Part shown: one piece after another, positions 16,264 to 51,675 of the stretch
How positions within the stretch are numbered: position 1 is the first letter of the stretch
Layout: each line of letters starts with the position of its first letter
Source: Tridacna crocea
Lineage: Eukaryota; Mollusca; Bivalvia; Cardiida; Cardiidae
Direction of reading: 5' to 3'
Length of the DNA: 64,000 bases
Assembly (NCBI GenBank): GCA_943736015.1
Contig: OX031064.1
Span: 38,491,361-38,555,360 of the forward strand
Translations under genes and position numbers: made by a program
Notes under the pieces: model-generated
What the model was told of the DNA's origin: nothing
The model's database searches: none
Seen by the model: the letters and a program-made list of their open reading frames with translations, nothing else

Positions 16264-16406
16264 TTAACCCATTACCACACAATCCCTACTTTTGACGCCC
16301 CTGAGACAGAAGCCTTTTGAAAACACTGCGGGAAAAGGAGAAAATGCTTGTGACCAGCATTTTCTCCTTTTCCCAAAGTGTTTTCTACCCTTCCCAGAAT
16401 AAATTG
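16264..16406 (-). mobile_element. Family A MITE, far end lost
   Basis: TTAACCCATTACCACAC start, then the hairpin with arms carrying ACACTG and CAGTG-like partner changes (AAAACACTGCGG / AAAGTGTTTT). Similarity stops near 16406 and no closing terminal repeat is seen. Confidence 0.75.
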
Positions 16407-16865
16407 AACAGAGAAAAGGGGGAAAAGCGCCATTTTCTTCACGACTGACAATACTTCAGACAGCCGTATTTCTGTAGAGAGGTGGAAATTAAGGATTACT
16501 TGGCCCAAAAGTTAACGTATCCAATCAAATCCATGTACGTTTGTATAAACGTAACTATTCTGTATCTCTAGATCTCTCTGAAAATCGTACAAATGAACGT
16601 TCAACATAACCGCGGTCACCTTTTGTGGCGTTCAGACCCGTAGTTTAGTGCATCTTTAACCGGCATCTTTCTATTAGCAATAATCGGTTCTCTATGTTCA
16701 TTGCCCTTTTGGGAAACAGCTCCTGCGCCAGCGTTTAACACGCCAATGAGTAGAATCTCTCTTTTTTTCCCGATCTTTGTTTTTCTCGGTTTTTAATTTG
16801 TTGGTGAGTCCGTTAGCTCCGTAGATAATATATATAGTTTGAAGAGCAGTTGTCGCTCGTTCACC

Positions 16866-17166
16866 AGCCGATATAGCTCAGTAGATAGAGGATAGGACTC
16901 GTGAACACAATGTTTCGGGTCACTACAGGTTATGGGTTCGTTTCCCCGGCTGGCAAACTAAAATTACTAATAGTATTTCGGAGGAGACATTAAACCGAGG
17001 TTCTGTGTGACGGTGCTATACGCCGAGCACGTTAAAGAACCAGGCAAAGCTCTCAGTAGTTTTGACCTGTATCCTTGCACTATTCCCCCGTAACAACTAA
17101 CCGTCTTCTGGGGGGCCTCGCTCAGATGGGCAAACGGTAGCGACGATAAATAAACAGAAATAACCA
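16866..17166 (+). mobile_element. tRNA-derived SINE
   Basis: The head has box A-like TATAGCTCAGTAGATAGAG (16872-16890) and box B-like GGGTTCGTTTCCC (16934-16946), a tRNA-like arrangement with an enlarged variable region. The body contains GACATTAAACCGAGG and GCACGTTAAAGAACC (16985-17042), a core type common in SINEs of marine invertebrates. The tail is A-rich (GATAAATAAACAGAAATAA). Not a functional tRNA: the acceptor stem does not pair well. No clear target duplication identified. Confidence 0.75.
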
Positions 17167-17356
17167 ACTAACAGTCGCTCGTTCGATTTACCAAATTCTT
17201 TTCGAGGATTAAAAAGTATCCTTTGTCAAAGCTTAGCGCGTAACGATATTTGATGTGGAAAAGAAGCCAGTGGCTTGGAAAGAATTTCACGCTGAGTACT
17301 CTTCAAATGATACATGTATCTTATGATCTTATGATAGATCTGTAACTGATACGATG

Positions 17357-17533
17357 TTAACCTTTTACTACATAAAGTATTTCTATGTTATCTCTAATTG
17401 ACCCTAAATAACAGCAAGGATGAAGCCGTTTCTTATGTGTATATGACACCTTTTGGTACCATAGAAAACAATATTTTCCAAAGGCTCCTACAAGCAATGC
17501 GTAGAAATGAGTAACTATGGAGTAAAGGGTTAA
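17357..17533 (+). mobile_element. Family C TTAA MITE lacking its hairpin
   Basis: TTAA ends with CCTTTTACTACATA and TATGGAGTAAAGGG. The body matches the copy at 18904, but the central palindrome is gone. Only GAAAACAATATTTTCC remains where the full copy has a hairpin of about 65 bp. Confidence 0.85.
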
Positions 17534-17619
17534 AAACCTGTAACTCATCAAATCAACAAACGTACTGTATTTATTTAATTTCTTCCAAGGCTGCTGATGA
17601 CAACAGTCCATTTATATAT

Positions 17620-17885
17620 GGCCTGTAACAGGCGAAAAGTGGCATTCGGTCATTTGCCTAAAGTGTTGCCTCTGATTAACCTGGGCAGTCCGCGCAGACT
17701 AATCTGTGACGACACTTTTCGCTTTTATGTATTTTTCTGTTTTTTGCGCAAGCCTACTGTAGCATTATTTCAAACGTAGTCGTAAAATGATGTCTCTGGT
17801 TAGCCTGCGCGGACTGCGCAAGCTGATCCGGGACGACACTTTACGCAAATGTCTAAATGCCTCTTTTAGCGTGTTGGAGGCCAAT
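17620..17885. repeat. Two family J modules
   Basis: Two copies of a block around AACCTGGGCAGTCCGCGCAG (about 17675-17700) and AGCCTGCGCGGACTGCGCA (about 17801-17820), each followed by ACGACACTTT and CGC. They match the interior of the foldback at 4930. Confidence 0.65.
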
Positions 17886-18162
17886 GATATCAGTGCTTCC
17901 TAGATTTCACAGGGCTTTAGATTTGCCGTGCCTTGCCCATTGGCACACCAAGAAAACCAGCTGTGCATGGTCAGATCTAACTAAGCCATCTGAATTACAT
18001 TTTCAACCTCTATGGCCGAGCCACACAGACTGCCCCTGTATTCCAGGATTTGAACTGCTTACGAACATGAAAGTTCGTAACAAAAGCATGGCTGAAATTC
18101 AAAACGCATCTGGCGGTATTCGAACCCATGACGGGCAAATATCCTCGTTTTTAGAGGTTTAC

Positions 18163-18566
18163 CATCTTCGCAAGCCAAGGCTGACGATTCACTACGTTAC
18201 TCTACCCTTGGCGGATCGAGCTTGATTTTTACATTCCCCCGATACGCTTTCTCATTGGTTGCAGCCAGCTCTAGCCGCAATGAATGAAATCACTCGCAGT
18301 ATTTTATCTTTGATAAAAATAGAACAAAGTCGCTATACCTTTCGAATAGGAGGTAAACATGGAAACCCACGTGGATGTCTGCTTATCGCTTCATGTGTAT
18401 TCGTAAGCGGTTTGTAAAACGATATTTCATTTGCTTTTAGAAATATGATATAAAGGGGGGTAATAATCAGCATCCAATAGAGGGTGCATCGCAGGAATCT
18501 CGAAATCGGGCTCAATCCGCCAAGGTAAGATCCACGTAGTGATCGTAACCTTGGCTCGCGAAGATG
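18163..18566 (+). mobile_element. Family O foldback, copy 1 (about 404 bp)
   Basis: Ends CATCTTCGCAAGCCAAGG and CCTTGGCTCGCGAAGATG are inverted repeats extending about 65 bp. The interior is shared with an inverted copy at 22408-22812. Non-coding. The defined ends and two copies indicate a non-autonomous DNA transposon. Confidence 0.8.
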
Positions 18567-18654
18567 TTGTTATAGGTATTGTAACTAAATCGGGACGAAG
18601 CCATGCATGAAGGAGTGGTCTCCCGTAACAGATGCCCAAAGGTAACAATTCTTG

Positions 18655-18725
18655 GGCACAATGCAAATCATGATCAGACTGCACATATCGTGCTGTCTGA
18701 TCATTAATCATCCCTGTCCAATATC
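18655..18725. repeat. Family D-type hairpin fragment
   Basis: ATGATCAGACTGCACATATC pairs with CGTGCTGTCTGATCAT. Followed by CCCTGTCCAATA, as in D and F elements. Outer ends not found. Confidence 0.5.
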
Positions 18726-18903
18726 CAATATATCCTGAGTTATTCTGTCCAAAATGTTGTCGAATGAAGACAAACCTTACCATGTTTCAAAAAACAAAAC
18801 TTTAAAGAAATAAAAAACGTAGAAAATTCATCATCATTACTGCGGAGAATTTATAGGAGAATTAAATAAGGCTAAATTTCTCTCTTCAAAAGCCTCTGTT
18901 TTT

Positions 18904-19133
18904 TTAACTCTTTACCCAATAAGATATTTCTATGGTATCTCTAATTGACCCTAAATAACAGCAAGAATGAGGCCGTTTCTTATGTGTGTATGACACCTTT
19001 TGATGGCATAGGAAACATTGTTGCAAAAGGTGAAATTGCTCGTCATGAGCAATTTCACCTTTTGCAACAGTGTTTTCCAAAGGCTCCTACAAGCAATTCC
19101 GTAGAAATGAGTATCTATGAAGTACAGGGTTAA
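18904..19133 (+). mobile_element. Family C TTAA MITE, complete
   Basis: TTAA at 18904-18907 and 19130-19133, with ends CTCTTTACCCAATA and TACAGGG. The central palindrome (about 19012-19080) has arms AAACATTGTTGCAAAAGGTG with apex GCTCGTCATGAGC. It differs from family A and B stems at paired positions (GCAAAAGG/CCTTTTGC). Confidence 0.85.
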
Positions 19134-19216
19134 TCTGCGATTTTTATTAAATACCTTAATATTAAAACGATTCTATAGATGAAGATTTATCACACAAAAT
19201 TAGGAGGGTTATCTCT

Positions 19217-19446
19217 TTAACTCTACCAAATAAAATTTCAGACTGGTCCAAATTGAAGGCTTATGCAGACGACAGATTAAACATGGCCAAAGTGAGAAAG
19301 ATTGTCATTGAAAGGGTAGAAAATATTGTGGGAGATAGATAAAATGCTAGTTACCAGCATTTTTTTTTTCCTTTTTCCACTATGTTTTCCAAAACCTCCT
19401 TCTTCAGGGTTGATAAAAGTCGGGGATCATGAGGCAAAAAGGTTGA
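19217..19446 (+). mobile_element. Family A MITE, first of three in a cluster
   Basis: TTAACTCTACCAAAT start, hairpin at 19316-19390 with a decayed left arm, and end CAAAAAGGTTGA. It runs directly into the next copy. Confidence 0.8.
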
Positions 19447-19674
19447 CCTTTTACCAAACTGCAAAATTTTGGACCTATCCAAATCGAAAGCATTTGTAGG
19501 GCGATAATTTCACAGTGGCTCGAATGAAGCATTTTTTTTTCTTTGATAGGGTAGAAAACTTTGTGTGAAAAGGAGAAAATGCTGGTAACCAGCATTTTCT
19601 CCTTTTCCCACAAAGTTTTCAAAAGGTCTCTTCCTCAGGGTCGTTAAAAGTCTCCATTGTATGGTAAAGGGTAA
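19443..19674 (+). mobile_element. Family A MITE, second of the cluster
   Basis: TTGACCTTTTACCAAAC start and TGGTAAAGGGTAA end. The hairpin (about 19556-19622) carries ACTTTGTG and CACAAAGT, a paired change from the consensus ACATTGTG/CACAATGT. Confidence 0.85.
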
Positions 19675-19715
19675 AGTGGTAATCGCATATCGCACTTCAT
19701 AATTCTTATCCACCT

Positions 19716-19944
19716 TTAACCCTTTACCCTATGGCAATATTGTAGACCTGTCCGAATTGAAAGCATTTGCGGATGACAGTTTCAATCTGGCTAATAAGAA
19801 ATTATTTTTCTTTGATAGGGTAGAAAACATTGTGGGAAAAGGAGAAAATGCTGGTAACCAGCATTTTCTCCTTTTCCCACAATGTTTTCAAAAGTCTTCT
19901 CTTTCAGGGGCGTCAAAAGTCGTCATTAAGTGGTAAAGGGTTGA
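19716..19944 (+). mobile_element. Family A MITE, third of the cluster
   Basis: TTAACCCTTTACCCTATGG start, perfect hairpin at about 19822-19890 with apex GCTGGTAACCAGC, end GGTAAAGGGTTGA. Confidence 0.9.
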
Positions 19945-20414
19945 GCCATCACGGATGGAAAGCCTGGCTGGCTAATCCGGAAATGTTCACGACTAGAAGT
20001 TAGTTGCAGTTAATCCGGAAAGGCCCATGCCTATCGGTCAAGTCGATGAGAGTTCAAGCACCAACTCGAACATAATCTAATCATGGTGGATGAGAGGCAT
20101 TGCGACTTGGTTTATTCCACTAGCAAGTTGTTAAATGAATCGACTTCGTTCAAAACTCACTAAAGCCAGCGAATAGGTAATTTTCAGTGTTTAAAACCCG
20201 AAAATATAATGGATTACCCATCACTACATACAGGTCTGATTTATCCAGTGCATTTGATCGAGAATATATATCATCAAAGTTTACCGTAGATACCCTATTT
20301 TAAGAAGCCTCGCCTAAAAGACGCACTAGAAAATTAAGGAAAATGCGGCTTATGGTCTATTTTGTACGGTCATATTTTTTGCATGGCACAATCGACAGTT
20401 CTATCGATTATTTT

Positions 20415-20530
20415 GAGTAACGTGTTTTAGTATAGTTCTTAAGAATTGAGGCAAATTTCAAAGAAACACATTTTATGGTTAGCTAAGCCAAATAATTTAT
20501 CCAGTTAGAAAGTGTATTATAAAAGTATAG
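20415..20530 (+). mobile_element. Degenerate family G fragment
   Basis: GTTCTTAAGAATTGAGGCAA and TGGTTAGCTAAGCCAAATAA resemble the arms and centre of family G. Terminal repeats not seen. Confidence 0.45.
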
Positions 20531-20539
20531 ATTTAGGCC

Positions 20540-21640
20540 GCATTTGCACAGCAAAACAAAAGAATTAGTTTAAACATATTTTATTACCAATTGTATACAT
20601 AGTTTTCTATATAACAAAGACAGTAATCATCCAAATAAGGCAAAAGGGTCTGGCCACAAGTTCTCACGACTTAGCTTCGGCCATTCTCTTTTGTTTAACT
20701 TTTTCTCTTTTTGTTTTACACCGAATACGGTCTTCAATAATACCAGATATATTAAAAAAAAAACATACAATAAATAAATTTCGGGCTAGTATGTAGAGAA
20801 GACAGTGTCTTTCCGGTCATGAACGGAAACAACATGCATACAAATGAAAATTTGTTAAAGAAACAAGTCAATCAAAAAAAAAGTAAATAGGCAAAAGAAT
20901 AAAGATATTTTAAATGAACATCTACTAAACAAAACCTTTGTAGATCATTTCTTCTGTTTATTGGGTTACACATTATTTTGAAAAACTCACAGACAATAAT
21001 TAATCTAGCGGCTGCCATAGTAAACATAAAAAAATGTTGAAAATGGCTTAAAACACTCTTCCTTGTAAAACGATTACTCAAAATTATCGATGAAACAAAT
21101 TCTGGCATCATCACACATGCTCATGAAATGCATTATTGTAAACGCAATAATAACGAGCGGTCACATGATTCAAGTCATATTGGGAGTAAAGGATCAAATT
21201 CTCCCACGGGATTTAGGAATCGTTGTTCTCCAAATTAAAATGAACAAGTTCTCTTTAACCCGCTGTGGCCATTCACCAAACTACAGTCTTCTTCGAATAT
21301 TGAAAAACGGGTTTAATTTGGCCTCTTCACGCAACGACTTGACTTCTATCAGTTTTAATGAGCGTTCAGAGATCGTTTAGATCTAACTCATTGTATCCCA
21401 GCAGCTTTACTGTTAACTCCGCCCCCTTGCGGAAGACACTTAAAGAGATGGGAAATTAACAATTTGTTTTGTTTGATGGGGCTAATTTGTTTTGTTTGAG
21501 CTTGTGCCTGGTTGTGATATGCAGCTGCCTCAGCTTACTCCGTCAAAACTAAAGGCTTTCGAACGAACTCGACTGTGATTTCTGTTTGATTCGAGGACAA
21601 ACTCGATCCTTTCCATGCTACCAGACGGCAAAGCACGTTA
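20540..21640. other. No gene recognised
   Basis: AT-rich sequence. Short open frames at 20872-21114 (minus) and 21090-21380 (plus) overlap and have no protein similarity I can name. Confidence 0.45.
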
Positions 21641-21641
21641 C

Positions 21642-21869
21642 TTTACCCTTTCCCAAACGAGAAATTTTAGACTCTTCCAAACTCAAAGAGTTTGCAGACA
21701 ACAATTTCAAATTTGATAAAAATGGCAGAAAGCTTTTCAAATGGGTAGAAAACACTGTGGGAAAAGGAGAAATTGCTCGTTACGAGCAATTTCTCCTTTT
21801 CCCACAGTGTTTTCAAATGACTTGTACTGCAGACACGTAAAAGCAAGGGTTTGTTTGGGAAAGAGTTAA
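21642..21869 (+). mobile_element. Family A body with B-type hairpin apex
   Basis: CCCTTTCCCAAACGAG start and TTTGGGAAAGAGTTAA end. The left flank contains the family A segment (GAGTTTGCAGACAACAAT), but the hairpin apex is GCTCGTTACGAGC, the family B type. The arms carry CACTGTG/CACAGTG, again a paired change. Confidence 0.85.
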
Positions 21870-22089
21870 ATATCATTATCACATAACCATGTTTATTTCA
21901 ACTGTAATACAGCCGCTACGAATTTCCTTATCTTACACACGTCAGAAATACCACAGTGCCTTATTTGGCTAAACTTCAGCATTCATACACCTCATTTCTT
22001 GTACATTGCAGGCCCTGATGTCTGTAAAATCTACTGTCAAAAGTTGGTGATCGTAGCAAAACTGCTGATTTCATCCAACACATAAACTC

Positions 22090-22363
22090 CCTTATGGGCC
22101 CCACAGATTATGACGCTGCGTCAGCAATCCAAGTGGTCAAAACGAGGCAATAGCGGACATGTTCTAACCGGAGATTTTTCGCCTCTCACTTCTGATTCAT
22201 GTGAAAAAAGTAGTCAGTGGTTTCGGAAAGCAAGTTGAGTTAGTATTGGTGTGAGAAAGCCAGGAAACACATGGGTGCGTCACTGACCGTCGTAATATGA
22301 CCTAAGCTCTTACAATGGCGTCGAACTCCGTTACAAACCAAACCAAATCAGTGACATTGGATT
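22090..22363 (+). mobile_element. Degenerate SINE-like 3' region
   Basis: ACTGACCGTCGTAATATGAC followed by ATGGCGTCGAACTCCGTTAC and ACCAAACCAAATC resembles the 3' part of mollusc SINEs (ATATGACC ... GGCGTTAAAC ... AAACAAA). The tRNA-like head is not clear. A weak call. Confidence 0.4.
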
Positions 22364-22407
22364 TTCAGCCTTCTACAGCGGTCAAGTTTAGCTTAGTTTA
22401 GTTGATA

Positions 22408-22812
22408 CATCTTCGCCAGCAAAGGTTGCGATCACTACGTGGATCTTACCTTGGCTGATTGAGCCCGATTTCGATATTCTAGCGAAGCGCCCTCTATTGG
22501 ATGCTGGCTATTACCCCCCCCCCCTTTACATAACATTTCTAAAAGCCAATGAAATATCGTTTTACAAACCGCTAACGAATACACATGAAGCGATAAGCAG
22601 ACATCCACGTGGGTTTCCATGTTTACCTTCTATTCGAAACGTCGCGACCTTGTTCTATTTTTATCAAAGATGAAATGCTACGAGCGATTTCATTCGTTGC
22701 AGTTAGGGCTGGCTGCATCCAATGAAAAAGCGTATCGGGGAAATGTAAAAATCAAGCTCGATCCGCCAAGGGTAGAGTAGTAGTGAATCGTCAGCCTTGG
22801 CTTGCGAAGATG
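22408..22812 (-). mobile_element. Family O foldback, copy 2
   Basis: Inverted relative to 18163-18566 and alignable across its full length. Begins CATCTTCGCCAGCAAAGG and ends CCTTGGCTTGCGAAGATG. Confidence 0.8.
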
Positions 22813-22934
22813 AGTTGTTAATGAGAGCGTGAAAGTAAACTTCCAACACCTCAAAGTTGAACCTACTGACAAAAATAGATATAAAATATGCTCTGGCATA
22901 AGATGGCATAAAGTATCTCTGTGATTCATTATAA

Positions 22935-23090
22935 AAAATACAATGCAAATCATCAAATACTTATGGGTCCATGAAATACAATGTCTAACTACCAACTGCA
23001 TCATGAAGTACACCGGTCCTCTGACATACCGAATATCGACTGATAGCAAAACGTTTCGGTCCAGGTCAGCCTGCGCGGAGCGCCCTTTAC
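22935..23090 (+). repeat. Family P dispersed repeat
   Basis: Shares GGTCCATGAAAT, ATCATGAAGTACACCGGTCC and the following TTTCGGTCCAGGTCAGCCTG with 55000-55190. Partial relatives lie at 43155 and 44333. About 150 bp, non-coding. Confidence 0.6.
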
Positions 23091-23186
23091 CAGGCGATCC
23101 CTTGGGGATTTTCTATGAGCTTGGGAAATAAGGCCATTGAAAACATCGTAATAATTGCTGGAGAAAATCTCACCGTATCGAACAGT

Positions 23187-23303
23187 GTCCTGAGATCAGA
23201 CTGCACCTTTTGTGCAGTCTGGTCTTAATCTATATTTACCTCCCCCCCCCCCCAAAAAAAAAAGGGCGCCTTACCTCTCGCTTAACAACCTAAGGGTTAA
23301 AGA
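23187..23303 (-). mobile_element. Family D MITE remnant
   Basis: Hairpin ATCAGACTGCACCTTTTGTG/CAGTCTGGTCTTAATCTA and an end CTCGCTTAACAACCTAAGGG TTAA at 23284-23299. A C-run and A-run interrupt it at 23240-23262. Confidence 0.6.
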
Positions 23304-23629
23304 TCAGACAAGCCGGGGATCGGGGTCCCTCGAGTGCCTTAGACAAAAAAAATTAGCAGCCAATCTAATTACCTGCAGACAGAAGTGACTTACACAAAGG
23401 GCCGCTATATTTAATTAATGAATGAAGAGACAAAAGAGAACGGAGCAGCAGAAAGACCCCTCTTAAAACTGAGCAAATGCACGTGAAAAAGAGGTTTAAT
23501 TCATTCACACACACAAAAAAAACGAATCGGCTCAGATCAGCCTTCGTGTCTGCATGACAAAGAACCAGCTTGCCTCATGATTCCGTCGATTGTCAGAAAA
23601 ATGTAGTTTATAATTACATACTTATAGTT

Positions 23630-23740
23630 GGTCTACGACATGCGAAAAGTGAATTTTCGGACATTTGCGTAAAGTGGCGTCTTGGATCAGCCTGCGCAGG
23701 CAAATCTGAGACGGTAATTTACGTCAACGTAGATTTTTCC
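23630..23740 (+). repeat. Family J module
   Basis: GCGAAAAGTGAATTTTCGGA, then TTGGATCAGCCTGCGCAGG, matching 4950-5035. Confidence 0.6.
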
Positions 23741-23864
23741 CATATTCATTAAACCCGCTCATGAACAGAACAGAAGAGAACGTAACAGATTTTAATCAGA
23801 AAAACAACTTGAACACATATTAAGTGCCATCGGCGACATACATACACAATAAATTACTCAGTAC

Positions 23865-23942: not shown

Positions 23943-23949
23943 ATATTCC

Positions 23950-27274: not shown

Positions 27275-27655
27275 TGGGTCCGTATTCCCAAACCATTATT
27301 AACCCTTTACTCCATAGATACTCGTTTTAATACATGAACAACAGACTGCTTTTGAAAACATTGTGGGAAAAGGAGAAATTGCTCATAAAGAGCAATTTCT
27401 CCTTTTTCACACAATGTTTTCTACTCAAGCAGAGAATTGTTTCCCAATTTGTCCATATTTTTGCCATCATATCTTTATTTGCTGCTGAATTGGAAGCGCC
27501 TAGAACTGGCATATGAGGTAAAGGGTTAAGCACATTGTTATTCTCGACAATTCCCTATGTTGGCTACTACTTCTGATTGGCTAAATTAAATGCTTTAGTT
27601 AATCAGAAGTTGTGTTACTTTTATAAATCTAGAATGAGACTTATTAGATTTTTCA
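27275..27655 (+). mobile_element. Family G foldback interrupted by family B
   Basis: GGGTCCGTATTCCCAAACCA at 27278 is the family G left end. The element resumes after the nested MITE with TTATTCTCG and the centre TTCTGATTGGCTAAATTAAA at 27570-27600. The right terminal repeat is not present. Confidence 0.7.
27299..27529 (+). mobile_element. Family B TTAA MITE nested in family G
   Basis: TTAA at 27299-27302 and 27526-27529, ends CCCTTTACTCCATAG and GAGGTAAAGGG. Hairpin apex GCTCATAAAGAGC, slightly decayed. It sits in the TTAA that family G carries in its TTCTTAAGAAC block. Confidence 0.9.
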
Positions 27656-31563: not shown

Positions 31564-31776
31564 GTAACCCTTTCGCTGCTTATCGCGTGTCACTGACCTT
31601 TTGCGGACATTCAGATCAAGATCAGACTGCAAAGAACGTGCAGTCTGATCGTGGATCTACACTGTCCGGTAAGGAGATTTTATTCCCCAACACACATAAC
31701 CTTGAAATAACAATATTTAGGTTTTTATCATCGAAATGAACATTTCATTTTAGTTCTTTAGCAGGACAAGGGTTAA
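31564..31776 (-). mobile_element. Family D TTAA MITE
   Basis: Starts TAACCCTTTCGCTGC, hairpin AGACTGCAAAGAACGTGCAG, ends CAGGACAAGGGTTAA. Its closing TTAA is also the opening TTAA of the next element. Confidence 0.85.
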
Positions 31777-32001
31777 CCCTTTACTCCATTGATACTCATT
31801 TTGACGTATCAACAACAGACAGCTTTTGAAAACATTGTGGGAAAAGGAGAAATTGCTCGTAACGAGCAATTTCTCCTTTTCCCACAATGTTTTCCACTCA
31901 ATCAGATATTTGTATCCTCATTTGTCCATATTTTTTGACATCATATTTTTATGCTGCTGAAATGGAAGAGCCTCAAATTGGCATATCAGGTACAGTGTTA
32001 A
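31773..32001 (+). mobile_element. Family B TTAA MITE
   Basis: Ends CCCTTTACTCCATTG and GGTACAGTGTTAA. Perfect hairpin at about 31826-31890 with apex GCTCGTAACGAGC. Nearly identical to 670-899. Confidence 0.9.
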
Positions 32002-32671: not shown

Positions 32672-32881
32672 CCCTTATCCTGCTATATGACTAAAACTAA
32701 ACTTTTAGTTAGGATATTAATAACCCAAACATTGCTGCTTCAAAGTTACGTTCTCGGGAAATAATATCTACCTATCGGATGGTGTAGATCAAAGATCAGA
32801 CTGCACGTTCTGTGCAGTCTGATCTTGATCTACATCATACGCAAAGGGTCAGTGAGTCGCTCTTAGCAACCAAAGGGATAG
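32668..32881 (+). mobile_element. Family D TTAA MITE
   Basis: TTAACCCTTATCCTGCTA start, perfect hairpin AGATCAGACTGCACGTTCTG at about 32793, end GCAACCAAAGGGATAG (TTAA lost). Confidence 0.85.
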
Positions 32882-36939: not shown

Positions 36940-37161
36940 GTCGCCAAGAAAAGAGTAAATACTGAACCAGTCAACAAAATTTTGCAGATGACAAACCAGA
37001 TAAACCTCAAATAAATAAATTTGTCTTCAGTAGGGTACAAAACATTGTGCAGAATGGAGAAGATGATTGGTACCGACTTTTTCTTTTCTTTTTCTACAAT
37101 GTTATCTAAATTCGTCATCCTCAGGTTCGTTAGAACCCGGAGTTATTTCGGAAAGGGTTAA
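36940..37161 (+). mobile_element. Degenerate family A MITE
   Basis: CAAAATTTTGCAGATGACAA and ACAAAACATTGTGCAGAATG with right end CGGAAAGGGTTAA. It ends in the TTAA that starts the next copy. Confidence 0.65.
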
Positions 37162-37386
37162 CCTTTTTCCAAACGATCTCTGGTTGTCACGACCCTGAGA
37201 CAGAAGCCTTTCGAAAACATTGTGGGAAAAGGAGAAAATGCTGGTAACCAGCATTTTCTCCTTTTCCTGCAATGTTTTCTACCCAGCTGGCCATGAATTC
37301 CAATTTTTGAGTTACGTTTATTTTCTCGTCTGCAAGTGCTTTCAATTTGGACCAGTCTAAAATTTTGTCGTTTGGTAAAGGGTTAA
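37158..37386 (-). mobile_element. Family A TTAA MITE
   Basis: TTAACCTTTTTCCAAACGAT start, hairpin at about 37212-37278 with apex GCTGGTAACCAGC, end GTTTGGTAAAGGGTTAA. Confidence 0.9.
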
Positions 37387-39879: not shown

Positions 39880-40283
39880 ACGTCTGGGCGGGATTATGCA
39901 AATGAACCACGCGCGCTGGTGCTAATGACCAATCCTATGAGAGTAGAACGTGACGTAGATCCGCGCCACATTTTTTGTCTCTAATGTGTTGACAAATGAA
40001 CTATATGCTTACTAAGATTTCATGTAAGGATCTATTTACTTATCTTCGAAAGCGAGCAGAGTTTTTTTTTTGCATAGATCCTAGAATTTCTGTGTGCGGG
40101 AATATAATATTAGATGGGGCCTTTGGATTGTAACTGTCTTTCTAGGAAGCTACTGTGGCGATGCTCTTGCACAAGCTAGTGTGTAGTAATGACATTGATA
40201 TAGGGATCATCAGTGTAAATTAAAATACTTAATATTATTATAGTTTTGTTTATTTTATGTGAAGGAAAATAACTCATTACAAA
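39880..40283 (+). promoter_or_regulatory. Putative TLX promoter and 5' UTR
   Basis: Within 80 bp there are a GC box (GGGCGG, 39886-39891), an octamer (ATGCAAAT, 39896-39903), a CCAAT box (39929-39933) and a CRE-like TGACGTAG (39951-39958). This stretch is unusually GC-rich for the window and free of transposons. No TATA box at a convincing distance. Placement 330-400 bp upstream of the start codon is consistent with a core promoter plus 5' UTR. The assignment rests on motif clustering, not on a known transcription start. Confidence 0.5.
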
Positions 40284-40779
40284 ATGTCGAAAGAAGACAG
40301 CAAAGAATCACAACGTGAAAACAAACATAATACAGACATTGAAAGTGCGGAACAAAAAGCTTCCAAACCACGGTTGTCGTTTGGTATCACAAGGATATTG
40401 GGTGAAAGCCGTCAAAGATCACGATCTCTCTCTCCTAAAAAGGACAGAAAAGACTCCTCGTCGGATTTTGAAGTGGTTGATTCAGACGCCGACGTCATTT
40501 CTGATCACGAGCAAAATGACGTCGAAGAGACTCACTCGGAATCGCCGTCATCATCACCATCGTTGTCGACGTCGAAATTTGACGGCAGTCTTGGACAATC
40601 TCCGACGATTTATCCTCTAGATTTGGCTTCGTCTGCAATGTTTCCTTTAGCCGGTTGTGGATTGTACAGGGGACCTCATGGGGTGATCAAGGTGCCGGCA
40701 CAGCGTCCACATCCCATGATGCAGTTATTTACGCCCTACAGTATTCCCTGGGTAGACTTTCGTCGGGATAGATTTGGGG
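40284..40779 (+). CDS. TLX: TLX/C15-like homeobox factor, first coding exon
   Basis: A 165-codon exon ending in a split glycine codon. Residues 29-40 (KPRLSFGITRILG region) match the EH1 Groucho-binding repressor motif in the TLX form (ISFGIDQIL). Residues 134-142 (VIKVPAQRP) match the TLX block VVRVPAHRP, and residues 155-165 (PWVDFRRDRFG) match PWMESNRRxxKDRF just before the homeodomain. Between them is an acidic, serine-rich linker (58-98). The start codon has A at -3 and an in-frame TGA eight codons upstream. A donor GTTTGT begins at 40780, in phase 1, where TLX genes end exon 1; the reading frame beyond it runs into a MITE and is not coding. TLX proteins are nuclear DNA-binding regulators of neuronal and mesodermal fate in animals. 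The homeodomain exon was not recognised downstream in this window. Another NK-class factor with an EH1 motif is the main alternative. Confidence 0.78.
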
Positions 40780-40802
40780 GTTTGTACATTAAAGATTTCC
40801 TT

Positions 40803-41033
40803 TTAACTCATTACCAAACGACAATATTTTAGGCTTGTCCAAATCGAAAGCATTTACAGACCACAAAGTAAAGCGACTTAACATGTTAAATTTCTTTTGT
40901 GAAGAGTAGAAAACATATTGTGGGAAAAGGAGAAAATGCTGATTACCAGCATTTTCTCCTTTTCCCACAATGTTTTCTAAAGGCTTCTTTTCTCTGGGTC
41001 ATCAAAAGGAGGGATTGTGTGGTAATGGGTTAA
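40803..41033 (+). mobile_element. Family A MITE in the putative TLX intron
   Basis: TTAACTCATTACCAAACGAC start, GTGTGGTAATGGGTTAA end, hairpin at about 40909-40978. It begins 23 bp after the splice donor and in sense orientation. Confidence 0.9.
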
Positions 41034-42985: not shown

Positions 42986-43010
42986 AACTTTTCAGTGCAT
43001 GGTATCCACT

Positions 43011-43320: not shown

Positions 43321-43532
43321 TTTACCCTTGTCCTGCTAAATAACTAAAATGAAATTTTCAATTACATAGTAAAAACCGAAATATTCTTATTTCATCGTTA
43401 TGTTTTGGTGAATACTATCTCCTTATCGGGCAGAGTAGATCCAAGATCAGACTACACATTCTCTGCAGTCTGATCTTGATCTACACCGTTCGCAAATGGT
43501 CAGTGAGTCTTGCTTAGTATCCAAAGGGTTAA
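43321..43532 (+). mobile_element. Family D TTAA MITE
   Basis: Start TTTACCCTTGTCCTGCTA, hairpin AGATCAGACTACACATTCTC near 43445, end ATCCAAAGGGTTAA. It shares its last TTAA with the next element. Confidence 0.85.
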
Positions 43533-44178: not shown

Positions 44179-44332
44179 GTGAATGCCAAGATCAGGCAGG
44201 CGGCACAAAACGTGTAATGTCATTCTTCGATCTTACCTTATTGATATTTAGACCAAAAAAGTCTAGAAAAAGGGTAACAGATTTGCCATATTCTAATAAA
44301 AAGGGGTTTAATGGATCTGTGTAATATTATGC

Positions 44333-44440
44333 GAGTGATCATTTCATCGTGGGTCTATAAAATTTAGATAACGTCTAGTAAACGACTAAATCATGGGATA
44401 AAATGGCCCTTTGACATGTGAAAATTTATCTGCTCGATAC
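44333..44440 (+). repeat. Family P dispersed repeat, partial
   Basis: TCATCGTGGGTCTATAAAAT, AAATCATGGGATAAAATGGC, TTTGACATGTGAAAATTT as at 43155. Confidence 0.6.
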
Positions 44441-44460
44441 GCTTTGAAAATGCATTTTAA

Positions 44461-44689
44461 TTAACCCTTTACCACTCAATCCCGACTTTTAATACCTCTG
44501 TGACAGAAGCCTTTTGAAAACATTGTGGGAAAAGGAGAAAATGCTGGTTACCAGCATTTTCTCCTTTTCCCACAATGTTTTCTTCCCTTCCTAAAGACAA
44601 ATTTCAGTTCTTGAGTCACATTTATTTTGTCGTCTGCAAATGCTTCCAATTGGACCCATCCAAAATTTTGTCGTTTGGTAAAGAGTTAA
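44461..44689 (-). mobile_element. Family A TTAA MITE
   Basis: TTAACCCTTTACCACTCAAT start, perfect hairpin at about 44515-44582, end GTTTGGTAAAGAGTTAA. Confidence 0.92.
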
Positions 44690-44847
44690 GCTACATGTCC
44701 ACGGAACTCAGGTCTATTTGACTCTTTCCTTATTTAGAAATGTCCCTGTCGGTATATCAAGCGTTTTTTTTTAAATTCGTTCTGAAAACAAAATTGAAAA
44801 CTTTCCGGTAAAATAAGACTATATAACATGACTTTTGTGTTTCTGTA

Positions 44848-45068
44848 CCCAAAGACAAAATATTAGACAAGTCAAATTTTAAAGCATTTGCAGACGACAA
44901 ATCAAATTTAACTTAAAATATCAACTTTGTCGATCATGCTAAGGTAGCAAACATTGAAAAAAAAAAAAGAGAAGAAAACGCGGATCACCAGCAGTTTCTC
45001 CTTTTCCCACGGTATCTTCAAATGCCTTTTTCCTCGTGTCTATTGAAAAGAGTGTGGTCAAGTGTTAA
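44848..45068 (+). mobile_element. Degenerate family A MITE
   Basis: CAAAATATTAGACAAGTC and GCATTTGCAGACGACAAAT survive. The left hairpin arm is replaced in part by an A-run. End GTGTGGTCAAGTGTTAA shared with the next copy. Confidence 0.75.
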
Positions 45069-45298
45069 CCCTTTACCACACGACAAAATTTACGACCGGT
45101 CCAAATTGAAAGCATTTGCAGACGACAAAATAAAGATGGATTAAATGGCAGTATTTGCTCTTGATATATAGAGTAGAAAACGTTGTGGAAAAAAGGAGAA
45201 AATGCTGGTTACCAGCATTTTCTCCTTTTTCTACAATGTTTTCAAAAGGCTTCTCTCCAAAGATCGTTAAAACCCGGGATCGTTTGGTAAAGTGTTAA
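45065..45298 (+). mobile_element. Family A TTAA MITE
   Basis: TTAACCCTTTACCACACGAC start, hairpin at about 45175-45243, end GTTTGGTAAAGTGTTAA. A LINE begins immediately after its closing TTAA. Confidence 0.9.
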
Positions 45299-45409
45299 TG
45301 TACGAACATAACGTTACTATGATAATAGTAAAATAACAGTAAGAGTAGCGGGCTAGATACGCTGATAGCAGAAATATACAAACATGCTTTTGCCAAAATT
45401 TCGCGCGTA

Positions 45410-47209
45410 ATGCTATTACTTTTTAATAAAATATACGATAGTGGTAAGTACCCTAGCGATTGGGGAACCGGAGTTATCATACCTATATTTAAAGGTGGAG
45501 ATACCGATGATCCAAAAAATTACCGCGGGATTACACTCAATAATATTATTTCAAAAATTTACTCCCAAATTTTGCTTAATCGTCTTACGAAATGGTCAAA
45601 TTTGTATGGTAAAATAATCGATAATCAATTTGGTTTTCAGAAAAATAAATCAACAATAGATTGCATTTTTCTTTTACACTCAATTATTCTGAAATCCTTA
45701 TATAGTCGTAAAAAATTGTATTGCGCATTTGTTGATTTCGAGAAATGTTTTGACAGGTTGAATCGATTTTTCATATTCCAAAAATTATCGCGCGAAAATG
45801 TTAGCTCGAAATTTGTATTGGCTATCAAAAACATGTATAACACTGTTAAAGCAGCAGTAAGATTTAATTCAGACATGTCATCATTCTTCAATTCCAACAT
45901 CGGTGTAAAACAAGGAGATCCTAGCTCCACGATTTTATTTTTATACTTCATAAATGATATAATTGATAGTTTTGATCAAAACATAGACGGATTATTTAAG
46001 TTAAACGGTGAAAATTTATTCATACTGCTTTTTGCAGACGACACAGTTCTATTTGCTCATACACCCACTGCTTTACAATCGCTCTTGAATGATTTACAAA
46101 ACTTTTGCCAAAATTGGGGGTTGAAAATTAATACGAACAAAACAAAAGTAATGATTTTCGAATTAGGACGATACACAAATTACAATTTTGTTTTAAATGA
46201 AAACGTTTTGGAAGTGGTAACTTCTTTTAAATACTTAGGAATTAATCTTTTCAAAAATGGTAATCTGTTCAGATCACATAAAAAGCTTGCGCAACACGCT
46301 TCATTCGCTTTACACAACTTGTTTGTTGTTTTAAATCAATTAAACTTAAATATAGGAGAGCAATGTTGTTTATTTGATAGCCTGGTAGGGTCTGTATTAA
46401 ACTATGGTGCCGAAATATTCGGAACAAGCGAATATAAATCCTTCGAACTAATTCATTGTAAATTTCTTCGGAAAATTCTTGGCGTAAAAAAATCTACCAA
46501 TTTAGATGGTTTATATGGTGAAACAGCTCGATATCCTATGCTCATACACCGTAAAATTAAAATGTTTAAATTTTGGATAAAAATAATCGACAGCGAAAAT
46601 GACTCTTTAATGAAATGTATTTACAATGGGTTAATGCACGACGCGGAGATGAATAATACATACAATGGAAATAATTGGGCATATCAAATCAAATCATGTC
46701 TTTATGAGTTAGGTTTAAATGATCTATGGCTCTACCAGAACGAAATGCAAATTAATTTAAGTGTTATCAAAACTAGAATATTAGATGTTTATAAACAAGT
46801 ATGGCATTCAAATATTAACAATTCAAGAAGATTGGCAGCATATTGTTCATTCAAAAATTCCTTTGAACAAGAAAAATACCTTGAAATAATCAAAATAAAT
46901 AAATATAGAATAGCATTAAGTAAATTTAGACTTTCTTCACATAAACTGAGAATAGAATCAGGTAGGCACGAAGGTATAGGTATTAATGAAAGAATATGCA
47001 CCCAATGTAATATGCATGTTATAGAGGACGAATTTCATTTTTTACTAGTCTGTCCAAAGTACCACAACTTCAGAACACAGTTTTTGAAACCTTATTACTA
47101 CCGTTGGCCAACGCTCCATAAATTCCAGACTCTTTTATCAAGTCAGAATACAAAGCAATTATTTAATTTGTCTAAATTCATATACACTGCTTTCAACGCA
47201 CGTGTTTAA
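45410..47209 (+). CDS. LINE reverse transcriptase (ORF2 C-terminal part)
   Basis: A 599-residue open frame; the frame stays open back to 45332, adding SSGLDTLIAEIYKHA, the usual block before motif 0, so the annotated methionine is arbitrary. Reverse transcriptase motifs appear in order: NYRGITL (37-43), GFQKNKST (75-82), FVDFEKCFD (107-115), QGDPSS (168-173), FADD (208-211, catalytic aspartates present) and SFKYLG (272-277). A C-terminal zinc-binding-like motif CTQC-X9-H-X4-C lies at residues 530-548, as in jockey/CR1-like and related LINEs; I cannot fix the clade. The endonuclease half is missing through 5' truncation, so it cannot move alone, but the lack of internal stops in 600 codons points to recent insertion. 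It would copy RNA into DNA at a nicked target. Confidence 0.92.
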   Translation: MLLLFNKIYDSGKYPSDWGTGVIIPIFKGGDTDDPKNYRGITLNNIISKIYSQILLNRLTKWSNLYGKIIDNQFGFQKNKSTIDCIFLLHSIILKSLYSRKKLYCAFVDFEKCFDRLNRFFIFQKLSRENVSSKFVLAIKNMYNTVKAAVRFNSDMSSFFNSNIGVKQGDPSSTILFLYFINDIIDSFDQNIDGLFKLNGENLFILLFADDTVLFAHTPTALQSLLNDLQNFCQNWGLKINTNKTKVMIFELGRYTNYNFVLNENVLEVVTSFKYLGINLFKNGNLFRSHKKLAQHASFALHNLFVVLNQLNLNIGEQCCLFDSLVGSVLNYGAEIFGTSEYKSFELIHCKFLRKILGVKKSTNLDGLYGETARYPMLIHRKIKMFKFWIKIIDSENDSLMKCIYNGLMHDAEMNNTYNGNNWAYQIKSCLYELGLNDLWLYQNEMQINLSVIKTRILDVYKQVWHSNINNSRRLAAYCSFKNSFEQEKYLEIIKINKYRIALSKFRLSSHKLRIESGRHEGIGINERICTQCNMHVIEDEFHFLLVCPKYHNFRTQFLKPYYYRWPTLHKFQTLLSSQNTKQLFNLSKFIYTAFNARV

Positions 47210-47266
47210 TAGCTGAGTTGTTGAAAAAACAATACAATTTATAAAGTTTTATCTTTCACAATTGTT

Positions 47267-47760
47267 TTGTTTCCAAAAATTCTAACCGACTCATACCTAA
47301 CAGCTTACATCTTCATTATTATTCGTAATCTGACTGTGTGGATCTGGGATCGGGGCTGCAATTTTTGCAATTCTGATCTTGATCTACACCGTCCTCAGAA
47401 ATTTAACCGACCTACACTTAACAGCCTACATCTCTATCATTACTTGTAATCTGACTGTAGATCTGGGATCGGGCTGGAATTTTTGCAAGTCTGATCTTGA
47501 TCTACATTTAAGACTTACATCTCAAATATTATTTGTAATCAGACTGTGTATGTCTGGGATCGGGCTGCAATTCTTGCAAGTCTGATCTTGATATATACCG
47601 TCCTCAGAAATTTAACCCAGCTACAATTGACAGTTTCTGTCTCCGTTAATATTGGTAATTCGACTGTGTAGATCTGGGAACAGACTTCAATTCTTGCAAG
47701 TCTGATCTCGATCTACGCCTTTCTCAAAAATTTAACACGTAACAGCCAACATCTCTGTTA
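47267..47760 (+). repeat. Tandem array, about four units of about 90-120 bp
   Basis: GATCTGGGATCGGG recurs at 47341, 47461 and 47551, and as GATCTGGGAACAG at 47670. Each is followed by TTTTTGCAAxTCTGATCTTG and an ATTTAACC block. It is derived from a D-type hairpin unit, since GATCTTGATCTACACCGTCC is the right arm of family D. Confidence 0.85.
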
Positions 47761-47879
47761 TTATTCGTAATTATTTACTATTTACTTTTTGTCAAAACAT
47801 TTGTAAGTGTATATTTATGTATGTATTTCACTGTAAAACTAGAATCAGACGGCAATTCTGACAACTTTGTAATAATCGT

Positions 47880-48003
47880 AATTATTCGTGATCTACTTTT
47901 CCCAGACCTTGTGGATTAGGGATCGGATTGCACACTGTGCGATCCGATCCTAATCCACATCGTTTGCAATATTGTTTTGAGGCGCGCTTAGCAACCGATA
48001 GGT
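47880..48003 (-). mobile_element. Family D-like element with variant palindrome
   Basis: The stem is GTGGATTAGGGATCGGATTG/CGATCCGATCCTAATCCAC instead of GTAGATCAAGATCAGACTG and its complement, yet both arms still pair. The right side has CATCGTTTGCAATATTGTT and GCGCGCTTAGCAACCGATAG. Confidence 0.65.
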
Positions 48004-48297
48004 TTAGAAGTCCAACTGTGAACATGCCATTCTTTTTTAAACTTAATCAGTATCTGTCTTCCCATGTTTCCTTCGGAAAACATGAAATTACTTCATGTGT
48101 TACCGACACGCACTTTTTTTTAAATCTACATACATTCTTTCGCATCTCGTGGTTATTGTATTTGTATTGGCTATAAATATGTGTATATTTAATGCCAAAT
48201 AAAGATTATGTTATGTTATGTTATGTTATTTGGTAAGAAAAAAAAAGTTATCCTTTTGCCACTTCGTTTTTGTTTTGTAAAAGTGGTTTACAAAAAA

Positions 48298-48420
48298 TTG
48301 ACTCTTTCATTACCATAGATGGTGCAAAAAGCTTTTGAGGAATAGGCTGATCAGGATCAGGCCGCACAGAACGTGCAGTGAGTCTGATCTCTGATCTTAC
48401 TGTCCACTAGTTTGTTCTAG
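48298..48420. mobile_element. Family F/D-like hairpin remnant
   Basis: GATCAGGCCGCACAGAACGT/GCAGTGAGTCTGATC with CTGTCCACTAGTTTGTTC, as in family F at 44064. Ends worn. Confidence 0.5.
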
Positions 48421-48423
48421 GTT

Positions 48424-48690
48424 TGGACCTAACCTGTATCTGTAGGCATTGAATAGCCTAACTTATTAGTTTGATAGTGAAGAAGGAAAAAATGAAAGCT
48501 CGTCTGATTTTAGGACAAAGGGCTTTTTTAGTAAATCTCTAACAATTTCAAAATAAAAGAAATAGAAAAAAAGAACACCAGAAACAAATTTTGCGGTTAT
48601 TTGGCATGAACTGCAAGCCCAATAGGGTAAAATTGAACAGCGGGGAATAAAAAAGGGAAAATTGCGATGTATGTGCTTTCCACTGCTTAT
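48424..48690. other. No gene recognised
   Basis: AT-rich; two overlapping minus-strand open frames lack any recognisable similarity. Confidence 0.4.
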
Positions 48691-48694
48691 ATTC

Positions 48695-48923
48695 AAAACT
48701 CCTTACCAAACAACAAAATTTTAGACTGGTCCTATTTGAAAGCATATGCAGACGACAAAATGAAAGTGTCTAAAAATTTGAAATTTGCTTTGTAAAGGTA
48801 GAAAACATAGTGGGAAAAAGGAGAAAATGCTGGTTACCAGCATTTTCTCCTTTTCCCACATTTGTTTTCAAAATGTTTTTTTCTCAGGATGGGAAAACCA
48901 GGGATTGTTTGGTAAAGACTTAA
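48695..48923 (+). mobile_element. Family A MITE
   Basis: ACTCCTTACCAAACAACAAA start (TTAA lost), hairpin at about 48800-48869, end GTTTGGTAAAGACTTAA. Confidence 0.85.
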
Positions 48924-48929
48924 ACAAGT

Positions 48930-49550
48930 CTGCTTCGTCCGAAATACAATTATTTTAACCGGAATTGTTGTTTGAATTATTAGATTTATTGCTACTCAAA
49001 TTTATGTACGTGGCAAACAGAAGCCCTTCACAACTTTATGGAAAACGTGTCTCGGTAAAAAAGTGTCTGTACATACCTAATGCTTGACTTGAAAAAAGGG
49101 CTACTTTAGCATTATCTCCCGCTAGATGGCATTCTATAAATACTCATCTATCTGATATGGGCATCCTGGGTACAGAGCCGAACCACTTTCCCACGCGACA
49201 ACTGTTACTTTTGAATTTCAAACTGAAATAAAAGTTTACCCAATAAAACGCTACCTCGTGCAATTCACTCAACTATGATCACCAGTTTAGAGAAATCTGT
49301 TGCTAAAGAGGGTCTCATTTCACCTCAAACGTATTTATACTTAAAAACTATTTTCAACATTGCTACTTTATAGAGCGTAATATTACAGTCAGCCCGCTTT
49401 TGGGGCTAGTAGTGATGTGTCATATAAGACAGTCGAATCTTCTAAGAATATGACATGCGCAGACAACGGCTACTTTAGAGCTCAAACCTAGTACTGGCGA
49501 AACCCATGATATGAATGAATATGTGAGCTGTCATCGTGAGATGGATGAAC
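48930..49550. other. No gene recognised
   Basis: AT-rich sequence without supported features. Confidence 0.4.
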
Positions 49551-49990
49551 ATATCCCTTTGGCCGCTAAGCGCGACTCGCTGACCTTTTGCGGACCGTGT
49601 AGATCAAGATCAGACTGCACAGAACGTGCAGTCTGATCTTTGATCTACACTGTCCGATAAGGAGATGTTATTCCCAAAAACATAACTTTGAAGGAGTAAT
49701 ATTAACGTTATTAAGCCTTTCCCAAATAGTCCCTGGTTTTTACGGGTCTGGTATAGAAGACTTTTGAAAACATTGCGGGAAAAGGACAAAATGCTGGTAA
49801 CCAGCATTTTCTCCTTTTCCCACAATGTTTTCTACCCTATCATGTAGAAAAATCATCTTTTTAGCAACTGTTAATTTGTCATCTGCAAAATGCTTTGAAT
49901 TTGGTCTGGACCAAAATTTGCCGTTTGTGAAAGGGTTAATATCGAATTGAAAAATTCATTTTATTCATATTCATCAGGATATTGGTTTAA
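49551..49990 (-). mobile_element. Family D TTAA MITE split by family A
   Basis: CCCTTTGGCCGCTAAGCGCG at 49556 and hairpin GATCAGACTGCACAGAACGT near 49610. The body breaks at 49711 and resumes at 49940 with TATCGAATTGAAAAATTCAT, ending TTAA 49987-49990. Compare the uninterrupted order at 31564-31776. Confidence 0.85.
49711..49939 (-). mobile_element. Family A TTAA MITE nested in family D
   Basis: TTAAGCCTTTCCCAAATAG start and TTTGTGAAAGGGTTAA end. Hairpin at about 49765-49832. TTAA on both sides interrupts the family D body. Confidence 0.9.
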
Positions 49991-50216
49991 CCCATTACCA
50001 CACAATCCCTACTTTTGACGACCCTGAGAAAGACGCCATTAGAAAAACATTGTGGGAAAAGGAGAAAATGCTGGTAACCAGCATTTTCTCCTTTTCCCAC
50101 AATCTTTTCTATCCTTCACAAAACAAATTTCATATTTTTAGACAGTTTGATTGTGTCGTCTGCAAATGCTTTCGATTTGGATAAACCTAAAGTTTTGTCG
50201 TTTGGTAATGAAATAA
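49987..50216 (-). mobile_element. Family A MITE
   Basis: TTAACCCATTACCACACAAT start, shared with the end of family D, hairpin at about 50041-50109, end TTTGGTAATGAAATAA. Confidence 0.88.
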
Positions 50217-50219
50217 AGT

Positions 50220-50590
50220 AGCATAAAAACATCAGGTTCAACTAATCTATCAAATAAGGTCAATATCAATGCAGTGAATGAAATACCAATTATTTTTTTT
50301 TAAATGCTATATCAATCTTCTCCAATGAGGTTGTTTTTTTCTTATTGTCCCAACTTTTATCATAACATTTGTATGTGTGTGTGTGTGTTTTTTTTTTTTA
50401 ATTTAAATTTGTAAGAAAGGAAACAGGATTGAAGAATCTTCTTGCAAAGGACTTTATATATATTTTGAGAACATTTTTCGTTGAAGGAGAAATTCTTCGT
50501 TGCACTCCTTCAGCTATAATTCTATTACTTATATTCAACTTTAATTCAGGTTAAAAGAATAAATTTTACTAGAACACCTTTTCAGGGCAA
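50220..50590. other. No gene; (GT)n-T tract
   Basis: A short GTGTGTGTGTG run and T-run at 50371-50399. Nothing else supported. Confidence 0.4.
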
Positions 50591-50595
50591 CCGCT

Positions 50596-50884
50596 TTAAC
50601 CCATTACCACACAATCCCTACTTTTGACAACCCTGAGAAAGAAGCCTTTAGAAAACATTGTGGGAAAAGGAGAAAATGCTGATAACCAGCATTTTCTCCT
50701 TTTCCCACAATGTTTTCTACTCTTCACAAAACAAATTTCAAATTTTCAGTCACTTTTCTTTTGTCCTCTGCGTTTTCTCCTTTTCCAACATTGTTCTTTC
50801 TACTCATCACAATACACAAATTTTGTCGTCTGCAAATGCTTTCGATTTGGACAAGCCTAATATATTGTCGTTTGCTAATGAATA
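50596..50884 (-). mobile_element. Family A MITE with partial arm duplication
   Basis: TTAACCCATTACCACACAAT start, hairpin at 50650-50717. A second copy of the right arm (TTTTCTCCTTTTCCAACATT at 50773) and of the following CTCATCACAA segment is inserted before CGTCTGCAAATGC, lengthening the element by about 60 bp. Confidence 0.85.
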
Positions 50885-51074
50885 AAATTTGTTTCAAGGA
50901 GGGTATAAGTTTTTAAAAAAGTCTAAATGCGGCTCAGAGTATATATGAGTAAAGCTGTTTTTGTGTGAAAACCATTTATTTCTTCTTTCCACAAAAAAAA
51001 ATTTGTGCGCCTATGTCCCAATGGTATTCAAAAAGAAGATAGTTTTTTCTCAGTCTTCAACCCTTTCAATACTT

Positions 51075-51130
51075 TTGAATAAAAAACTGCACAGAACGTG
51101 TAGTCTGATCATCTTTTATATCGTCTGCTT
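51075..51130. mobile_element. Family D/F half hairpin
   Basis: AACTGCACAGAACGTGTAGT then CTGATCATC and ATATCGTCTGC. A fragment only. Confidence 0.4.
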
Positions 51131-51446
51131 GTTTAGTCAATCCCGTGAGATAAAAAAAACTTTCCGAGTTACAATGGGTTATATTTTCAGTGTACGAAAG
51201 AGGTTTGGCTTATATACCGTACATTTGCCGCTCAAAGATTTCGCATGAGAAAAACTCCTAAATTGAAAAAAAAAGAAAACTGTTATAAATTGAAGCTGAT
51301 TAAGTCTTTAGAGGCGCAATTTTCTGACTATATTTATTATATAGCATTTATCTCCCGAATTCTCAAAATTCCGGATTCATATCTAAAACTTTTCAGCGGC
51401 TGGATCACTTTAGAAGAAATCTCACTTGCAATTTGTATTGATTGTT

Positions 51447-51675
51447 TTAACCCATTACCACACAATCCCTACTGTTGATGCCCCTGAGAAGGAAGCCTGA
51501 TGAAAACACTGTGAGAAAAGGAGAAAATGCTGGTAACCAGCATTTTCTCCTTTTCCCACAGTGTTTTCTACCCTGTCCAGAACATATTTCAATTTTTCAG
51601 TCGCCTTCATTTTGCCGTCTGCAAATGCTTTCAATTTGGACCAGTCTAAAATTTTCTAGTGGGGTAAAGAGTTAA
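51447..51675 (-). mobile_element. Family A TTAA MITE
   Basis: TTAACCCATTACCACACAAT start, hairpin carrying CACTGTG/CACAGTG in both arms (about 51503-51568), end GGGGTAAAGAGTTAA. Confidence 0.9.

Follow-up and report, generated by a model that had tools for sequence, protein, structure and literature searches.

Matched changes in both hairpin arms of a TTAA-flanked miniature element of Tridacna crocea as probable subfamily markers

Introduction

Why should several copies of one repeat carry the same base change in both arms of a hairpin? The question is raised by a stretch of 64,000 nucleotides from the bivalve Tridacna crocea (NCBI GenBank assembly GCA_943736015.1, contig OX031064.1, positions 38,491,361 to 38,555,360 of the forward strand), called here the window and numbered from its first letter, which holds many copies of a miniature inverted-repeat transposable element (MITE) built around a 67-base palindrome. 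A first-pass annotation had reasoned that arms mutating independently would leave mismatches in each copy, and had proposed copying from arm to arm in the folded state or, alternatively, selection for pairing. We found the same change in both arms of several copies, above chance in the better-kept ones, and we read such matched changes mostly as subfamily markers from transposing lineages, with copies decaying arm by arm after insertion. The probability of this reading is put at about 0.7. All copies, trees and rates used below were drawn from this one 64-kb window.

The element

A profile seeded with four copies and then iterated gave 54 non-overlapping matches in the window, 10.3 kb together, 32 on the plus and 22 on the minus strand. 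The consensus of about 228 bp has the layout TTAA-CCCTTTACC...GGTAAAGGG-TTAA, with TTAACCCTTTACC as its 5′ start, GGTAAAGGGTTAA as its 3′ end and inverted TTAACCCTTTACC termini, and its core consists of a 33-nt arm GAAAACATTGTGGGAAAAGGAGAAAATGCTGGT, a 1-nt centre and the reverse complement of the arm. The element is short, repeated, uniform in size and bounded by terminal inverted repeats, as a MITE is. The consensus CCCTTTACC carries CC[C/T]T, described as the terminal motif of the piggyBac/TTAA superfamily (PMC2872659), and variants among the copies include CTCT and CCCA. TTAA was found near 28 of 36 complete left ends and 30 of 36 complete right ends, within a short search span and counted at occupied sites. 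Judged by its TTAA ends and CCCTTTACC termini, the element appears to be a non-coding piggyBac-type MITE with a conserved hairpin, a kind already known.

Paired changes compared with chance

Stems could be aligned in 44 matches, the other ten having no usable stem and being left out of the arm counts; 13 copies scoring below 140, of which 11 are A-type, were treated apart. Relative to their subfamily consensuses, the 31 copies scoring at least 140 carry 39 left-arm and 38 right-arm changes, and they hold six identical paired changes against 1.31 expected (site-weighted Monte Carlo, P=0.001; 0.81 expected with uniform sites). Two of the six, in the copies starting at 16264 and 51447 (copies are named by their first position), are probably a single event by descent. 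The 27 gap-free stems, 25 of them distinct, form an alignment from which six of the 33 tree copies were dropped, their stems being longer or shorter than 67 nt; here 22 cells are altered on both sides against 5.0 +/- 1.8 after shuffling (0/500), and seven pairs have a two-sided change against 3.6 (9/500), while slid partners gave 1-4 two-sided cells. No excess was found in the 11 degraded A-type copies, where four paired changes compare with 6.3 expected and ten same-site changes that differ between the arms with 6.7 expected. The premise that the copies lack mismatches also failed, as 38 of the 44 stems hold at least one mismatched pair; perfectly paired stems number six (19717, 21644, 31773, 44461, 54346 and 61049). 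Relatedness inflates the covariation counts, and therefore trees made from the flanks were used to place the changes.

Paired variants in individual copies

16264-16406, minus strand: MITE copy with truncated left end; in stem 16319-16385, T>C in both arms at position 8 and three pairs mismatched
18905-19133, plus strand: subfamily C copy; stem 19011-19077, GCAAAAGG/CCTTTTGC, with a private paired G>T at position 12
19445-19674, plus strand: MITE copy; stem 19554-19620 with a private paired A>T at position 7 and one single-arm change
19717-19942, plus strand: MITE copy with perfect consensus stem; sister of 19445 (99/45, 36-copy flank tree)
21644-21869, plus strand: subfamily D copy; stem 21748-21814 perfect, with the paired position 8 and apex variants
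51447-51674, minus strand: MITE copy; in stem 51502-51568, T>C in both arms at position 8 and a single mismatch
51876-52102, minus strand: subfamily D copy that retains the apex pairs; position 8 altered in one arm only
670-898, minus strand: subfamily B copy with different flanks and GCTCG apex
27299-27528, minus strand: subfamily B copy
31773-32000, minus strand: subfamily B copy with perfect stem
59728-59953, minus strand: subfamily C copy; stem 59781-59847
61901-62118, plus strand: MITE copy; at position 12 a paired G>T private to it, besides four single-arm changes
45066-45298, plus strand: MITE copy in which both arms have G>A at position 14
54346-54571, minus strand: the copy nearest to the family consensus among 28 compared; perfect stem 54401-54467

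The paired variants cited by the first-pass annotation could be read back in these copies, several of them beside unpaired changes. In 19445 the arms read ACTTTGTG/CACAAAGT, the A>T of position 7 being present in both, together with one mismatched pair at position 13 that the annotation does not list. CACTGTG/CACAGTG was confirmed in 21644 and in 51447, in the latter with a mismatch that had not been listed, and 16264 has the same position 8 pair as 21644 along with three mismatched pairs that had likewise gone unlisted. The apex indeed switches as a pair between GCTGG/CCAGC and GCTCG/CGAGC, in seven of the 44 stems (670, 27299, 31773, 21644, 51876, 18905 and 59728), and it comes together with a paired A>T that lies five bases farther out. 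The form GCAAAAGG/CCTTTTGC, ascribed to family C, is matched exactly by 18905 alone; in 59728 the G>C pair of position 14 recurs, next to single-arm changes. The two-arm G>A of 45066 is plausibly due to chance, since G>A is the commonest type of change.

Placement of the changes on flank trees

Trees were made from the flanks only, and stem changes were placed by parsimony over the best tree and 300 bootstrap trees of 33 copies, medians being reported. Internal branches carry five paired and five single-arm changes, and tips carry about 62 single-arm, three paired and three same-site changes that differ between the arms; the contrast in paired to single changes between tips and internal branches is significant (Fisher P=7e-4, events treated as independent). 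A set of 38 copies with more old copies (means over 201 trees) gave 5.6 paired and 11.1 single-arm changes on internal branches, and 4.5 paired, 105 single-arm and 8.9 differing same-site changes at the tips, with the same P=7e-4 (Fisher). Several of the cited paired variants are subfamily markers (16264/51447 and 21644/51876). In the 36-copy flank tree 16264 is the sister of 51447 (95/74), with less than half of the columns of 16264 filled. In the same tree 21644 is the sister of 51876 (100/99), and 18905, which alone represents C there, clusters with the three B copies (100/99). The flank-tree check proposed in the first-pass annotation was run on the window copies, and it largely returned the outcome named there as refuting its own reading, because paired variants mark subfamilies and single-arm changes lie within them. 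The exceptions are the private tip pairs of the best 33-copy tree, in 19445 (position 7), 61901 (position 12) and 18905 (position 12).

These three private pairs, together with the paired excess in well-kept copies, are what would be seen if template switching or conversion between arms in the folded state acted on inserted copies. Such events are documented elsewhere (PMC8794818, PMC8604942), and five tested stems fold strongly as DNA (z -10.0 to -18.5); for the stem of 19445 the fold has -31.9 kcal/mol (z -11.8). However, because only three paired changes stand against 62 single ones at the tips, at most about 9% of mismatches would have been resolved by copying, if either arm is fixed equally often and before chance coincidences are considered, and copying at that level would not account for the slow change of the stem given below. 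The degraded A-type copies lack a paired excess, and among eight stem insertions, in six of the 33 better copies, none is mirrored: 19222, 27299, 40804 and 45066, in one arm or the other, and 48697, in its left arm, account for five, the right arm of 48697 holds one at a different position, and two lie at the centre of 61274. Spacer inversion is not clearly seen either, the centre base being T in 31, C in eight, A in four and G in one of the 44 stems; the combination of within-copy paired changes and spacer inversions expected of template switching was not found. Arm-to-arm copying as a general process is therefore unsupported, since private changes are overwhelmingly single-arm and the degraded A-type copies show no paired excess, and we regard its action on inserted copies as quite unlikely.

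Conservation of the stem

For pairs of A-type copies (37 copies compared pairwise) the flanks differ by 0.15-0.30 and the stems by 0.05-0.06, and once the flanks diverge by more than about 0.35, stem divergence grows roughly as fast as theirs. Stem columns are 95.7% conserved over 25 copies, above most terminal-repeat positions. On the 33-copy tree the flank rate would predict 124 stem changes on internal branches and 260 at the tips, where 15 and 74, respectively, are observed. The constraint is strongest on the internal branches, the outcome to be expected of one that is active in transposing lineages and weakens once a copy has been inserted. Out of 33 positions the arm consensuses of A and B differ at two, and those of A and C at 4-5. 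As pairing alone would permit free paired drift, the arms seem to be constrained in sequence as well as in pairing, for example as inverted binding sites.

Between families, too, the stems diverge much less than the flanks (A-B divergence 0.141 in the stem and 0.545 in the flanks; A-C flanks 0.583), and recombination between elements could produce this by homogenising hairpins or swapping them between MITE families, the paired variants travelling as modules. The linked paired changes at positions 26 and 31 are common to B, C and D, whereas the tree of 36 copies puts the D flanks within A and that of 38 copies counts these changes as a separate event in D; recombination could also explain why the stem decays less than the TTAA ends. 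In the 33-copy tree, however, B, C and D are united by a single event at positions 26 and 31, homoplasy is not established, and the paired position 8 change of 16264 and 51447 follows the flank clade, which leaves such exchange an improbable source of the paired variants. The apex exchange of subfamily D was considered as proof of inter-family recombination and was dropped, as the 36- and 38-copy trees disagree with the 33-copy tree.

A strong fold with its pairing kept would equally suit selection on a transcribed RNA hairpin, either a small-RNA precursor or a structure in a transcript. Yet the mismatches of the 33 copies show no strand asymmetry in what G-T wobble would tolerate (the element strand would tolerate 19 and the opposite strand 20, while 28 fit neither), and we consider selection at the RNA level very improbable.

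A second hairpin family

Another family in the window, E, has 30 matches with the inner stem AAGATCAGACTGCAC and, in copies read by eye, CCCTT-type termini beside TTAA. One arm of its hairpin has a bulge of one base, and the 5-nt loop reads GTTCT in nine of ten well-kept copies and ATTCT in the other, again with no clear sign of spacer inversion. The ten well-kept copies hold eight identical paired changes against 1.9 expected, and the 13 divergent matches 30 against 12.8, more than half of these in 17800, 36153 and 47891. There is thus a paired excess in two of three quality classes of E, in counts taken copy by copy; two changes common to 31377 and 33656 are probably inherited.

Interpretation

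A transposase acting in trans presumably moves the non-coding MITE, and the 67-bp palindrome appears conserved, in sequence and in pairing, in lineages that are still transposing, as is borne out by a stem far slower than the flanks and most so on internal branches. Within such lineages a changed pair would occasionally become fixed in both arms and then mark a subfamily, a course that the flank trees bear out; each paired change could have been made in one template-switch step or in two steps under selection. Once a copy is inserted the constraint would be lost and its arms would mutate independently, as the single-arm tip changes and the degraded copies without paired excess suggest. The palindrome may be kept for the binding of transposase or a host factor at inverted sites, or for a fold needed in mobility. 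Selection for pairing, the alternative offered by the first-pass annotation, fits the transposing lineages.

Several observations weigh against this account. The private pairs of 19445, 61901 and 18905 could be copying events. Many of the internal single-arm changes are ambiguous placements at weakly supported deep nodes, trees and rates come from one 64-kb window, and the tip branches hold unsampled source history. The profile used to find and grade the copies includes the stem, which favours well-kept stems, and in the seven middle-score copies of family E there is no excess (three paired changes against 3.5 expected). Lastly, stem decay at the tips (74/2178) is below the decay of the TTAA ends, although an insertion should renew these; their decay is about 20/252 when read by eye (Fisher P=0.0014) and, when scripted, 16/256 with two-base shifts (P=0.03) or 27/256 without them (P=2e-6), a count that end misalignment would inflate. 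It is possible that the stem is partly protected after insertion, which arm-by-arm decay does not predict. The use of TTAA ends as an insertion clock was set aside as suggestive only, since the count ranges between 16/256 and 27/256 depending on how the ends are aligned.

It is unlikely, in our estimate, that the hairpin is instead a cis-acting mobility module common to, and perhaps exchanged between, unlike TTAA MITE families, with arms rewritten together in one step during replication or repair at transposition, so that paired changes would arise in moving lineages only.

Comparison with known systems

The CMITEs of Acropora corals (PMC2872659) and the bacterial REPINs (PMC3116915) are close precedents. 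CMITEs and the present MITE are both small and non-coding with TTAA ends and CCCTTT-type termini, and both conserve the internal region better than the terminal repeats and occur in adjacent or tandem copies (PMC2872659). Compared by description, CMITEs are about 100 bp long against about 228 bp here, and the parts of that report considered here describe no long palindrome or analysis of arm pairs. CMITE tandem arrays were ascribed to replication slippage (PMC2872659), whereas adjacent copies of the present MITE have one common TTAA. REPINs of Pseudomonas fluorescens resemble the MITE in being mobile hairpins with common compensatory changes (PMC3116915); they are described as bacterial, associated with the RAYT transposase and built of inverted REP sequences, and no sequence kinship with the MITE is claimed. 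In the reports on hairpin maintenance by template switching, a single event can produce a paired change or render the arms alike (PMC8794818, PMC8604942). These concern RNA genes and yeast coding genes, and the tip enrichment and spacer inversions given there are not evident in the MITE.

The MITE family offers many natural replicates for testing hairpin-arm co-evolution, copying against selection, with the flanks as an independent clock. The copies in the window indicate no more than a minor part for in-place copying, and a stem better preserved than the terminal repeats. Why internal regions outlast ends was left open by the coral authors (PMC2872659); a hairpin that served as a mobility signal would be relevant to this question in some TTAA MITEs.

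Other copies and features of the window

Exact-pattern scans of viral and genome contig collections for further copies returned none, and among the open-licence papers listed by literature searches none, judged by title or start of abstract, evidently describes the MITE family. Within the window a single TTAA is common to the abutting copies 36942/37158, 44842/45066 and 61049/61274, and the abutting copies at 36942-37385, 44842-45298 and 61049-61710 look like insertions into a neighbour's terminal TTAA. At 48697-48922 and 58091-58316 the left end reads AAAA where TTAA is expected. Further copies are as follows.

17357-17533, plus strand: subfamily C-like copy with most of the hairpin lost; start read by eye
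59150-59294, plus strand: copy with one arm lost, the apex joined directly to right-flank sequence
50596-50883, minus strand: copy with an internal tandem duplication, its junction in the arm near the apex
49553-49703, minus strand: family E hairpin copy, serving as replicate
884-1034, 31566-31718, 32728-32880, 43379-43532, 60619-60771 and others: family E copies

Seven of 20 internal fragment ends lie at profile positions 129-150, within about ten bases of the apex at ~139-140 (binomial P=0.008, for a bin picked after looking; five of the seven belong to matches below 50 bits and some copies supply two ends). Together with 59150, 17357 and 50596, these ends are consistent with hairpin-prone breakage in a small sample. 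Copies of B directly adjoin copies of E at 670-1034 and 31566-32000, by eye with apparently one common TTAA. Five E-like hairpins stand close together at 47326-48004 (47326, 47449, 47536, 47658 and 47891), possibly a local tandem array.

The window is AT-rich, with G+C of 0.33-0.40 in 4-kb steps, and a tRNA gene search of its 64 kb found none. Two stop-to-stop frames reach at least 150 aa. Two open reading frames of the window were scanned against Pfam, and neither gave a transposase. The frame at 40263-40832 (plus strand, 189 aa, low-complexity start) has no Pfam match; one stretch of it may resemble exons of homeodomain proteins. The long frame at 45332-47209 (plus strand) matches the reverse transcriptase domain RVT_1 (E 7.8e-36) and probably belongs to a retrotransposon without long terminal repeats (non-LTR).

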